Below are positions 37,440-43,229 of a stretch of 64,000 nt of DNA, in pieces. A model generated the notes under the pieces. That model searched no databases, was not told the origin of the DNA, and worked only from the letters and a program-made list of their open reading frames with translations. Every line of letters begins with the position of its first letter. Within the stretch, counting starts at the first letter, position 1. A program made the position numbers and the translations under genes. The DNA is taken from contig JABTUL010000001.1 in NCBI GenBank assembly GCA_015075425.1, positions 434,001-498,000 of the forward strand, in the 5' to 3' direction. The DNA comes from Spirochaetales bacterium. GTDB lineage: Bacteria; Spirochaetota; Leptospiria; Leptospirales; Leptonemataceae.

Positions 37440-37468
37440 TTGACATCGAAATCGAACGGGACTATACT
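37440..37468 (+). promoter_or_regulatory. Near-consensus sigma-70 promoter for the pup-like operon
   Basis: TTGACA at 37440-37445 and TATACT at 37463-37468 with exactly 17 bp between them. The predicted start near 37475 leaves a leader of about 12 nt that includes most of the GGAGG ribosome site (37474-37478). This is the closest match to the sigma-70 consensus I saw in the window. Confidence 0.7.
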
Positions 37469-37486
37469 GCGCTGGAGGCACCATCT

Positions 37487-37618
37487 ATGGAAGCAAAAAA
37501 AGTCAAAATCGCTGTGGAAGAGCCGCTGGCGATGGCGGTGGAATCTGTGCGCAAAGCTGCGGCGGAGAAGCCGGCCACCTATCTCAAAGATAGTATCGTT
37601 CCGGCAGGCGGAGAGTAG
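37487..37618 (+). CDS. Pup-like small protein modifier (43 residues, C-terminal Gly-Gly-Glu)
   Basis: A 43-codon gene with GGAGG eight bases before its ATG. The product is polar, rich in Ala, Lys, Glu and Val, with no Cys, and probably disordered to helical. The last residues, TYLKDSIVPAGGE, parallel the C-terminal FVRSYVQKGG(Q/E) of actinobacterial Pup and of Gram-negative UBact: an aromatic, then aliphatic, then basic residue, ending in Gly-Gly-Glu. Pup is linked through its C-terminal Glu to lysines of targets by PafA, whose homologue is the very next gene. Ending in Glu means no deamidase would be needed. It is shorter than typical Pup (~60-70 residues). Proteasome genes are absent from the window. 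The assignment rests on the C-terminus plus the neighbour. Confidence 0.75.
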   Translation: MEAKKVKIAVEEPLAMAVESVRKAAAEKPATYLKDSIVPAGGE

Positions 37619-39285
37619 CCCGTCTCTGCGGGCAAGAAACGGAATACGCCATCCGCTATTCCGGCCTGGTTCATCCGGGCAACCGCCTGATTTACGAATG
37701 GTTAAAAGAGGCCATTGAGAAGCGCGTGGCCTGTCAGCCCGGAGAGCGGGCTTTTTTTCAGGATCAATTTTTTCTGGCCAATGGCAGTTCCTTTGCCTAT
37801 GAGCACCTTCCCCAGGCAATCGACGGGGGCCTTATAGAGGGAGCCACGCCAGAATGCACAACGGCCAGTGAGCTTCTGCTCTACCAGCGAGCCCAGGAAG
37901 ACCTTCTCGCGGAGTGCGCGGCAGAAGTGGAGAAGAAACTACAGGCTTCCGACGTGCACTGCAGTCTCGGGCTCATCAAGAATTGCCGGGATGCCGCCGG
38001 TCACATCTACGGCGCTCAAGAAAATTACCAGTTACCCATTGCCCGGGGGTTCAGGCTTTTTATGCTGCGTTTTTGTCTGGGTCTGTACCTGCCTGTATTT
38101 GCTCTGGGTTTTGTTAGTTACTGGATTCTCTTTGCGGCAATGCTTTTACCGGCCGGCCTGCTGCTGGCAGCTTTCGATTCGTTACGCGCAAGAAAAAGGA
38201 AAGAGGAAGATTCCGCTCAGGTTCGGCTGCTTTCCCTGCTGGGCCGACTGGAGTATACTATCGCTCTTCCATTTTTCTCACTGCTGCTTTTGCCTCAGGC
38301 TCTGCTCTATCGTTTTTTAGCGTTCCACCCGGTGCGCCGCGCACTGCTGCCTTTCCTGATCAGCCGCCCTTTGCTGAGCGGCGCCGGAACCTTGCTTGAT
38401 TCATCCGAATTTCGCCTCTCAGAAAAAGGTGTGGCGATCCGCTGGCTGTACCGCTATACAATTGCACCTGGCGACAGACCTGTTTACGATTCGGGAAATC
38501 TGCTCAAGCAGTCCATGCTGGCCATGATGGGACTTTTGCGACTCGAGACCGGTCATCTCTGCTCCCTTTTTTCCGCAGAGCAGCGCATGCAACTGGGCCT
38601 TTCCGATAGCAATCGCGCCGATTACGCCGAATGGTTAAAAATTGCAACCACCCGGCTGGTGATAGACATGGCTCTTGCAGGCGCTCTGCCTGATGTACCG
38701 GTTATCAAAAGGCCGATTCAAGCACTGCACAATCTGACCGGTCCGGACACGGTGCTGCGGACCGGCCAGGGAGAGCAGACCGTTCTTTCCCTGCAGCGTT
38801 TTTATCTGGAAGCGGCGGAAGAATTTTTACAAAAGAAAAAAGCCGTCGACTGGGAAGAGCATGAGACCGTGCGCCTCTGGCGCGAAACTCTGGATTCCCT
38901 GGCCGCTGACCGCAGTCGCATGCTGGGCCGCCTGGATTGGGTGAGCAAGGAGTATCTGCTGGCCACGGCCGGCGCCGGGGCATCCTTCCCTGTGCTTCGC
39001 AAGATCGATATTGGTTACCATGAGCTGGAGCGGGGTTACTACGATGAATTGCGGCGCGCTGGCGTGGCCCTCCTGCGCTTTTCCTCTGCAGAGGTCCACA
39101 GAGCGCGCCTGGAACCACCGGACAATGAACGGGCACGGCTCCGATCCAGCTTTATAAAGGCGGCGGCCTTTAGCGGGGAGCGTTTGACCGTTAGCTGGGA
39201 CAAAATCTCCAGCCCGCGGGGCGTCGTGTCCCTGGACCATTTCCGCCGCGAAAAAAAGAAGACGGCGGATCCGGATGCGGGCTAA
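37615..39285 (+). CDS. PafA/Dop-family Pup ligase homologue with membrane insertion
   Basis: The frame opens RLCGQETEYAI, the N-terminal G-x-E-T-E motif of PafA/Dop. Further family matches are FFLANGSSFAYE, IDGGLIEGATPEC (the catalytic Asp region), LIKNCRDAAGHIYGAQENY, a long helical middle, DWVSKEYLL, IGYHELERGYYDEL and the C-terminal domain RARLRSSFIKAAAFSGERLTVSW. Between GAQENY and FLISRPLLSGAG, where PafA has ~25 residues, there are ~110, with two or three hydrophobic helices; this suggests anchoring in the inner membrane. The spacing after ETEY lacks the long Dop loop, favouring a ligase. No ATG, GTG or TTG lies upstream of the motif: the frame opens after a TAG at 37591-37593. GTA (37615), overlapping the pup-like stop as GTAG, is used here as a nominal start. 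A frameshift or sequencing error is the alternative. Confidence 0.85.
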   Translation, partial: VARLCGQETEYAIRYSGLVHPGNRLIYEWLKEAIEKRVACQPGERAFFQDQFFLANGSSFAYEHLPQAIDGGLIEGATPECTTASELLLYQRAQEDLLAECAAEVEKKLQASDVHCSLGLIKNCRDAAGHIYGAQENYQLPIARGFRLFMLRFCLGLYLPVFALGFVSYWILFAAMLLPAGLLLAAFDSLRARKRKEEDSAQVRLLSLLGRLEYTIALPFFSLLLLPQALLYRFLAFHPVRRALLPFLISRPLLSGAGTLLDSSEFRLSEKGVAIRWLYRYTIAPGDRPVYDSGNLLKQSMLAMMGLLRLETGHLCSLFSAEQRMQLGLSDSNRADYAEWLKIATTRLVIDMALAGALPDVPVIKRPIQALHNLTGPDTVLRTGQGEQTVLSLQRFYLEAAEEFLQKKKAVDWEEHETVRLWRETLDSLAADRSRMLGRLDWVSKEYLLATAGAGASFPVLRKIDIGYHELERGYYDELRRAGVALLRFSSAEVHRARLEPPDNERARLRSSFIKAAAFSGERLTVSWDKISSPRGVVSLDHFRREKKKTADPDAG

Positions 39286-41159: not shown

Positions 41160-43229
41160 ATGAAACAAAGTCTGATCGCTCTTTTCTTGCTCTGCTTGAT
41201 CGCTTGCACGGATACAATCTACATAGGTGTTGCCCTGCCTTTAAGCGGTTCCAAAGCCAATCGGGGCACAGACATTTTACAGGCGCTGGAACTGAGGGTG
41301 GAGCAGATCAATTCCGCCGGTGGAATGGAAGGCCGTCGTATCGAACTCGTTGTCAAAGATGACAAAAGCGACAAAGAAGCAGCCCGTCAGGTGGCCGCAG
41401 AACTGGGAGCAGATGAAAGAGTACAGGCAGTAATCGGGCATTACGACAACAGTATGGCCCTGGCCGCGCGCCCGGAATATGAGAAGGCAGGTCTTGTGGT
41501 TTATTCGCCGGCAGCGGGGGCTCCGGAATTTACGTCCGGCAGTGACTTCACGTTCAGCGGCACCTACTCCGATGCGCTGCAAGCAGAGAATATTGCCGTC
41601 TACGTCCAGAATGTTCTCGAGGCCAAAACGGTCGTGGTTCTGGCATCAGATGAAGTCCATGGTGTGGTGGGTGCCCGCGCTTTTACAGCCCGTGCCGGGC
41701 GAATTGGCTTGAACTACACGCTGCGATCGGTGGCGGAGGCTGCTTTAGCCGGTAATGGTGCCGATGTCGTGGTTATTCTCTCGCATGCGGATACCGGTCA
41801 GAAGGCCCTGCGTGAGCTGCGCGATTCTGGCTACAGCGGGACTATTCTGATCAGTGATCGCGCCAGCACGGATATCATTGAGAAACTCGATTTGAAATAC
41901 AAAAAAGATACATTGATATCGTTCCCTTTCATGTATGATCTGGCGGATTTTGTCGCTTCCGATTTTTTGCGCGATTATCAAAAGCGTTACGGCAAGGAGC
42001 CGTCCGTATGGGCAGCATTTGCCATTGATGGTTTACAGATTCTTTCCCGGGCAGCGGCAGGCGGAAAGGGCCGCAGTGAGGTGCTCAATGCCCTGAAAAC
42101 CATGCAAAACAAAGATAGCGGCGGTGATGGTCTGACCGGGAAGGTATTCTTTGATAAAGAGGGGTCAGCGGTTCGTTCGGCTACGGTGGTGCGTTTTTCC
42201 ACTCCCGGTGATATGTTCAAACCTTTATACGATCAGCTCAAGATCGTTTCTGATGAACACAATCTGAGGCAGGTGGATAAGAAAGTAAAGGCCGGGGAGT
42301 TTCTGCTCGCCGATGGCGTTCCTTATTTTAAGATAAAGGTCGTCTACGTGGGTATGGATTATTCCCGGGTGAACAGTATCCGTCCAAAAGAGCAGAGCTT
42401 TGATATGGAGTTTTTTCTCTGGTTCCGCTGGACCGGAGACTTCAACCCTGAGGATCTGGTGATTGTCAATGCAATTGGCGATGTTAACCGCGCTCCCCTG
42501 CGCGAGGATCTGAGTCGGCCTGACCGTTATCAGGCGTTCAAAGTTCGCGCAGAATTCCGCCACCCATTCAATTTGCGACGCTTTCCCTTTGATGAACAGG
42601 AATTGCCCATAACCATTGCCCACCGCAACCGCAACGCGGACAAACTGGTTCTGGTTGCCGACCGTGAGCGCATTCGCGAGTATCCGGTGAAGGAAATCTA
42701 CCCTGAGGAGTATCTTTACCTTGGCCGTAAAGAAGCCGGTGGAACGTTTACCATCTACTCTGTTTTTGGTAACCCTGGATACCGGGCCAATGAACGCCAG
42801 GCGGATTTCAGCCAGTTCCATTCTTCGCTGCTGGTCCGGCGCGATATCACGCCTTACCTGATAACATTGTTCTTTCCGCTGGCGATTATCTTCATCATTG
42901 CCCTTTTTAGTTTCCTCATAAATAAAGAAGATTTTCAGGAAAGACTGAACCTGTTCATGACAGCTTTGCTAACGGTCGTCGTGTTCCAGATGGCTCAAGG
43001 GGCAGAAATGCCGCGTCTGGGCTATCCTGTGATGGCCGATTTCTATTTTCTCATATCGTACGGTGTGCTATTTCTCTTCATCTTGAAAACCCTGTATGTG
43101 AACTACAGGCACCGGCGTGAACCGGAAAGCTCGGCCATTGATGTTCTGGATAAACGCTCTGATTTGCTTTTCATTGCAGTTGGGCTTATCGCTTTCACGG
43201 TGATCAGCTTGATCGGCTTTGCCGGTTAG
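41160..43229 (+). CDS. Binding-protein/pentameric ligand-gated ion channel fusion lipoprotein
   Basis: This 689-residue protein has a lipoprotein signal (ALFLLCLIAC, Cys16). Residues ~19-370 form a type I periplasmic binding protein of the LivJ/ANF-receptor kind (YIGVALPLSGSKANRG, INSAGGMEGRRIELVVKDD, AVIGHYDNS, VVYSPAAGAPEF). Residues ~385-560 form the beta-sandwich of a pentameric ligand-gated ion channel with the family hallmark loop FPFDEQELPI (475-484). Residues 564-689 give four membrane helices: M1 with its conserved Pro (FFPLAIIFII), M2 (RLNLFMTALLTVVVFQ), M3 (YPVMADFYFLISYG) and M4 (FIAVGLIAFTVIS). The expected role is a cation or anion channel in the inner membrane gated by an amino acid or similar ligand. 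It is preceded by a 231-bp divergent gap with A/T-rich stretches but no promoter I can defend. Confidence 0.9.
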   Translation: MKQSLIALFLLCLIACTDTIYIGVALPLSGSKANRGTDILQALELRVEQINSAGGMEGRRIELVVKDDKSDKEAARQVAAELGADERVQAVIGHYDNSMALAARPEYEKAGLVVYSPAAGAPEFTSGSDFTFSGTYSDALQAENIAVYVQNVLEAKTVVVLASDEVHGVVGARAFTARAGRIGLNYTLRSVAEAALAGNGADVVVILSHADTGQKALRELRDSGYSGTILISDRASTDIIEKLDLKYKKDTLISFPFMYDLADFVASDFLRDYQKRYGKEPSVWAAFAIDGLQILSRAAAGGKGRSEVLNALKTMQNKDSGGDGLTGKVFFDKEGSAVRSATVVRFSTPGDMFKPLYDQLKIVSDEHNLRQVDKKVKAGEFLLADGVPYFKIKVVYVGMDYSRVNSIRPKEQSFDMEFFLWFRWTGDFNPEDLVIVNAIGDVNRAPLREDLSRPDRYQAFKVRAEFRHPFNLRRFPFDEQELPITIAHRNRNADKLVLVADRERIREYPVKEIYPEEYLYLGRKEAGGTFTIYSVFGNPGYRANERQADFSQFHSSLLVRRDITPYLITLFFPLAIIFIIALFSFLINKEDFQERLNLFMTALLTVVVFQMAQGAEMPRLGYPVMADFYFLISYGVLFLFILKTLYVNYRHRREPESSAIDVLDKRSDLLFIAVGLIAFTVISLIGFAG

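Follow-up and report, generated by a model that had tools for sequence, protein, structure and literature searches.

The locus described here lies on the forward strand of a 64-kb stretch of spirochaete DNA (the window) and comprises two adjacent genes, with AlkD-like and porin-like genes as neighbors. The first gene, at positions 37487 to 37618, encodes a Pup-like product of 43 residues (MEAKKVKIAVEEPLAMAVESVRKAAAEKPATYLKDSIVPAGGE) with the tail ...ATYLKDSIVPAGGE and a C-terminal GGE. It is the only GGE-ended product among the 567 open reading frames of at least 35 amino acids in the window. The second gene (37615 to 39285) encodes a Pup ligase carrying a membrane insert, which is 556 amino acids long if the GTA codon at 37615 is taken as its start; the frame is open from 37594, and the segment GQETEY follows directly after the pup stop codon. 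Upstream of pup, the sequence TTGACA-17-TATACT (37440 to 37468) matches a sigma-70-type promoter at 11 of 12 positions with a 17-nt spacer, and it is the best of six sites of such quality in 3 kb, where 1.3 would be expected. A Shine-Dalgarno-like GGAGG (37474 to 37478) can be read directly 8 nt 5' of the pup ATG. An earlier note on this DNA had described a near-consensus promoter and a 43-codon, GGE-ended gene directly before a PafA-family ligase. Its coordinates and content were right, and the promoter is presumably functional. Further downstream on the same strand (41160 to 43229) there is a 689-aa open reading frame in which a periplasmic binding domain of the amino-acid type (Peripla_BP_6, 1e-42) is fused to the membrane region of neurotransmitter-gated ion channels (Neur_chan_memb, 1.2e-8); the product seems to be a ligand-gated channel that carries its binding protein within the same chain.

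When named genomes were scanned, 47 loci were found, distributed over Myxococcota, Planctomycetota, Acidobacteriota and Leptospira-type spirochaetes. The comparison used 49 loci: duplicates were dropped, as was a single locus of the canonical PafA/Dop type, while the loci from the class search and the Myxococcota locus L126 were included. In 47 of the 49, a small ORF ending in Gly-Glu is located just 5' of the ligase gene (GGE in 42 of them), and an adjoining Pup-like ORF is lacking at two, L063 and L066. The last residue of the tag is Glu in all 47 cases and Gln in none, even though the search pattern permitted Gln, and the tags have the pattern D[AS]...P..YL.E[ST].VP.GGE in common. The small gene is thus conserved beside the ligase, as would be expected from the earlier note. 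The tag did not match the Pfam Pup model (PF05639), and nothing was found when its profile was compared with Pup chains in the PDB; what it has in common with canonical Pup is the Gly-Glu tail and the position beside the ligase.

The ligase matches Pfam PF03136 (Pup_ligase) with an E value of 4.4e-62 and 210.9 bits, as compared to a curated cut-off of 25. It reaches neither the NCBIfam PafA equivalog (TIGR03686; 149 bits, cut-off 551) nor the Dop equivalog (111 bits, cut-off 492). As both scores are far under the cut-offs, the protein is a member of the family that cannot be called a standard PafA or a standard Dop. The previous assignment to PafA-type ligases therefore stands as to family, while a plain PafA it is not. 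An AlphaFold model, made with 38 sequences, has a mean pLDDT of 92.1 and a pTM of 0.91, and the best solved structures in a Foldseek search were Dop (4b0r, E 4e-23) and PafA-Pup (4bjr). The model shows the PafA/Dop (GS) fold, which bears out the relationship that this check had been proposed for. All 556 codons are free of stops, every residue invariant in the clade is kept, and GC3 is similar to that of the neighbor genes.

What the earlier description did not include is a hydrophobic insert, about 90 residues long, between the YGAQENY and FLISR segments (residues ~145 to 235, positions 38047 to 38319, plus strand). In the model, core strand 4 (residues 134 to 141) is followed by two long helices, 145 to 191 and 197 to 235, giving a predicted helical hairpin. 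The number of residues between the flanking motifs is 103 in the window and 96 to 139 in the clade versus 18 in the canonical locus L065, and canonical PafA and Dop are without the insert. The insert places the ligase in the membrane-anchored Pup-ligase group of Iyer, Burroughs and Aravind 2008. The hairpin would be expected to locate the enzyme at the membrane, with an even number of crossings (2 or 4), because the two halves of the catalytic domain must share one side.

Alignment revealed three substitutions at the active site. Where PafA and Dop have their catalytic Asp (D94 in Dop, PMC8599861; replaced by Asn in the chain of the PafA-Pup crystal structure 4bjr), the ligase of the window has E63 (codon 37801 to 37803, plus strand); the residue at this site is Glu in all 51 clade rows and Asp in all ten canonical rows. 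Loss of this Asp had been named beforehand as a finding that would speak against a ligase. The Asp is indeed replaced, yet the Glu is invariant across the clade. Two active-site His residues, used by Dop for metal, are replaced by Q135 in YGAQENY (38017 to 38019, plus strand) and by Q326 in RMQLGLSD (38590 to 38592, plus strand), and each is Gln in 37 of 42 main-clade rows. The residues kept in the clade are those of GxETE together with E75, K122, D126, R251, R324, D331, D441 and H469. Because the catalytic Asp is Glu and the two metal-site His are usually Gln, ligase activity is not assured. GxETE and the NG motif lie 50 residues apart, compared to 45 in PafA and 75 to 101 in Dop.

The beginning of the ligase gene is unusual. 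As a correction to the earlier description, no ATG, GTG or TTG occurs in its frame before 37726, and a start at 37726 would remove the GxETE motif. Alignment with the TTG start (TTG-GAT-CGC) of locus L022 assigns the start position of the family to a GTA codon (37615 to 37617, plus strand), which overlaps the TAG stop of pup as GTAG. Such an NTAG overlap was seen at two distant loci, the window (37615) and L060; in the latter, ATA is present in the equivalent overlap (ATAG), just upstream of position 672, and the ligase is intact. Short stop-start overlaps serve termination-reinitiation (PMC10666635). We infer that the genes once overlapped as GTGA or ATGA and that the stop then changed to TAA/TAG, destroying the third base of the start codon, or a sequence error at this place may be the source of the missing start.

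Inside the ligase ORF, at 37736 to 37758 of the plus strand, is an intrinsic-terminator-like hairpin followed by a T-run (AGCCCG-GAGAG-CGGGCT-TTTTTT), the sole such site under strict criteria on the plus strand of the window. An arm across the pup stop and the ligase start (37610 to 37634, plus strand) can pair with 37730 to 37758 at -37.3 kcal/mol, and equally strong pairing was found for 3 of 9106 arms in the window. This alternative pairing would fit an attenuator keeping the tag in excess, a possibility that was chosen post hoc and applies to this lineage only; a terminator-like hairpin was not found at the equivalent place in relatives. Together, the missing canonical start and the hairpin within the ORF raise the question of whether the ligase is expressed.

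The genome from which the window derives is 96% complete and has exactly one PF03136 gene. The same is true for each of the other five genomes of the class that have the family and for 19 further clade genomes, in which double PF03136 entries are pieces of one open frame. As there is a single PF03136 gene per genome, a Glu-ended tag without a deamidase is the rule in the clade. Both the one-enzyme arrangement and the idea that a tag already ending in Glu should need no deamidase, proposed earlier from the locus, are in line with these data. The search for prcA, prcB and mpa that had been suggested detected neither a 20S proteasome nor Mpa in this 96% complete genome, only HslV and FtsH: the PF00227 protein, considered as a 20S subunit, is HslV (281.9 versus 137 bits), and the best match to the Mpa model is FtsH. 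None of the other clade genomes has more than one PF00227 protein, where a 20S proteasome would have an alpha-beta pair. Separately, the actinobacterial genome of Flaviflexus huanghaiensis (G066; L065, L068, L088, L092 and L093) has two distinct clusters with four PF03136 genes between them and no PF00227 match, giving two pupylation loci without a proteasome.

Several other origins for the pair were considered. A phage or plasmid origin was rejected, as two scans of viral contigs gave no relative; phage and plasmid records gave one remote match each, at 27-28% over half the length. The pair had no PADLOC match as a defense system. A frameshift fusion of tag and ligase was also set aside, since no slippery site was seen by eye and the frame offset varies among loci; it is further disfavored because a fusion would block the Glu of the tag.

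The PF03136 family was found in 6 of 48 genomes of the window's class, all of them in the window's own family, and in 7 of 393 genomes of a phylum sample, indicating that it is sporadic in spirochaetes. In a tree with the insert columns removed, on which the claim of a clade rests (an earlier tree had the insert cut from some rows only), the membrane-insert ligases form one clade with a support of 100/100, apart from PafA/Dop. The clade that holds the ligase of the window also includes Plesiocystis (L056). A single origin of the spirochaete ligases was not adopted, as they fall in two sets in the tree, yet one clade is not rejected (p-AU 0.20). All-against-all comparison of the locus flanks revealed no third conserved gene and no neighbor common to the loci.

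Taken as a whole, the locus is probably a two-gene, membrane-anchored, single-enzyme pupylation module that works without a proteasome and attaches its tag to Lys with ATP. A bolder version would hold that this is a membrane-embedded, non-degradative system with a rebuilt Glu/Gln/Gln site, acting irreversibly on membrane proteins or even lipids, and as yet unstudied although present in at least four phyla; we think this version rather doubtful. Another notion is that the tag is attached, much as in Atg8 lipidation, to a non-protein amine at the membrane rather than to protein lysines; the acceptor might be a polyamine or the head group of an aminophospholipid. The membrane hairpin starting right after the active-site strand, the genome lacking a proteasome and a depupylase, and the active site being changed clade-wide are all compatible with it. 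However, characterized Pup ligases act on lysine, and the targets suggested by Iyer et al. are membrane proteins, so we hold such chemistry to be quite unlikely.

It could also be argued that the pair was formerly functional and that the ligase is decaying in the window's lineage alone, given that it has no in-frame ATG, GTG or TTG start, has a strict terminator-like hairpin at 37736 and combines these two features in a way not seen in relatives. An open frame of this length with its invariant residues and a GC3 like that of its neighbors speaks against decay, and L060 has an NTAG overlap as well with an intact ligase; hence decay is unlikely. Even less probable is a Dop-like deamidase or depupylase, a reading prompted by PDB scores that are slightly better to Dop than to PafA. 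As the sole family member in its genome, such an enzyme would have nothing to reverse, and the tag already ends in Glu; moreover, the GxETE-NG distance is near that of PafA and shorter than that of Dop, and, in the tree with the insert cut from some rows only, the clade falls, although weakly, on the side of PafA. Finally, the lack of a Pfam match might suggest that the small ORF arose by chance upstream of an unrelated ligase, a view that is refuted by its conservation at the ligase loci and by the common pattern D...YL.E..VP.GGE and can be dismissed for practical purposes.

If the locus is such a single-enzyme module, we envisage that: the hairpin would keep the ligase at the cytoplasmic membrane, the active site being on the cytosolic side; the enzyme would use ATP to phosphorylate the gamma-carboxylate of the C-terminal Glu of the tag, which would be used without deamidation; E63 would take over the role of the catalytic Asp; and the activated Glu would be joined to the Lys amine of membrane or membrane-near proteins. 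The mark may be regulatory, or a general protease (FtsH or HslUV, for example) may recognize it, either being likelier than a proteasome signal because there is no depupylase or proteasome. The ligase would probably be scarce relative to the tag, because its translation would depend on ribosomes that reinitiate at GTA once they have reached the pup stop and because part of the transcripts would end at the hairpin inside the gene. The Gly-Gly-Glu remnant on Lys for which mass spectrometry had been suggested is not to be expected after trypsin, as the last Lys of the tag is K34 and the remnant would be DSIVPAGGE.

Ubiquitin-like tagging in bacteria has been studied mostly as a proteasome signal. 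If the above interpretation is true, a conserved, membrane-held pair without a remover or proteasome would show a role of pupylation apart from degradation. The pair is small enough for transfer to E. coli, and the comparison names the precise residues.

Compared to the actinobacterial system of Pup, PafA, Dop, Mpa and PrcAB, the pair has the same fold, the GxETE motif and a small tag with a Gly-Gly-Glu (or Gln) end, encoded next to the ligase gene. It differs in that the window is without Dop, Mpa and 20S, in the membrane insert, in the Asp-to-Glu and two His-to-Gln changes of a ligase that scores below the PafA equivalog cut-off, and in the VP.GGE tail of a tag that has no Pfam Pup match. 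Another point of comparison is the tmH clade of Myxococcota (L117-L121 and L123-L125), a third paralogue in some of these bacteria, whose host genomes mostly carry further, canonical PF03136 genes. Like the ligase of the window, the tmH proteins contain a membrane insert and have Glu in place of the catalytic Asp, but they keep both His, and a Pup-like ORF adjoins the ligase at none of the eight loci.

The closest precedent is the Pup and membrane-insert ligase reported in Plesiocystis and Rhodopirellula by Iyer, Burroughs and Aravind in 2008 (PMC2588565). In those ligases, core strand 4 is followed by four predicted TM segments; they have no linked proteasome genes, membrane proteins were proposed as their targets, and the motif notation used, [HQ]x[NH] and [QH]x4D, already includes the Gln forms (PMC2588565). 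The window likewise has one ligase with its insert after core strand 4, an adjacent pup gene and no linked proteasome genes. The insert is shorter, with two long modeled helices instead of four predicted TM segments; the host is a Leptospira-type spirochaete; and the GTA start position and possible attenuator are peculiar to the window in this comparison. The window also has no linked membrane-protein gene, which is a weak criterion and not a defining trait, as such a gene was noted for two genomes only (PMC2588565). In the literature searched, which left most subscription journals outside its scope, we found no experimental follow-up of membrane-insert pairs and nothing linking pupylation to Leptospiraceae, Leptonema or Turneriella, in agreement with the earlier note, which knew of no described case in Leptospiraceae. 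The pair therefore belongs to the membrane-insert kind described in 2008 in other phyla. The present analysis adds how widely this kind is distributed, that its tags end in Glu only, that there is one enzyme per genome, that Glu replaces the catalytic Asp throughout the clade, and that the ligase gene has an unusual start.
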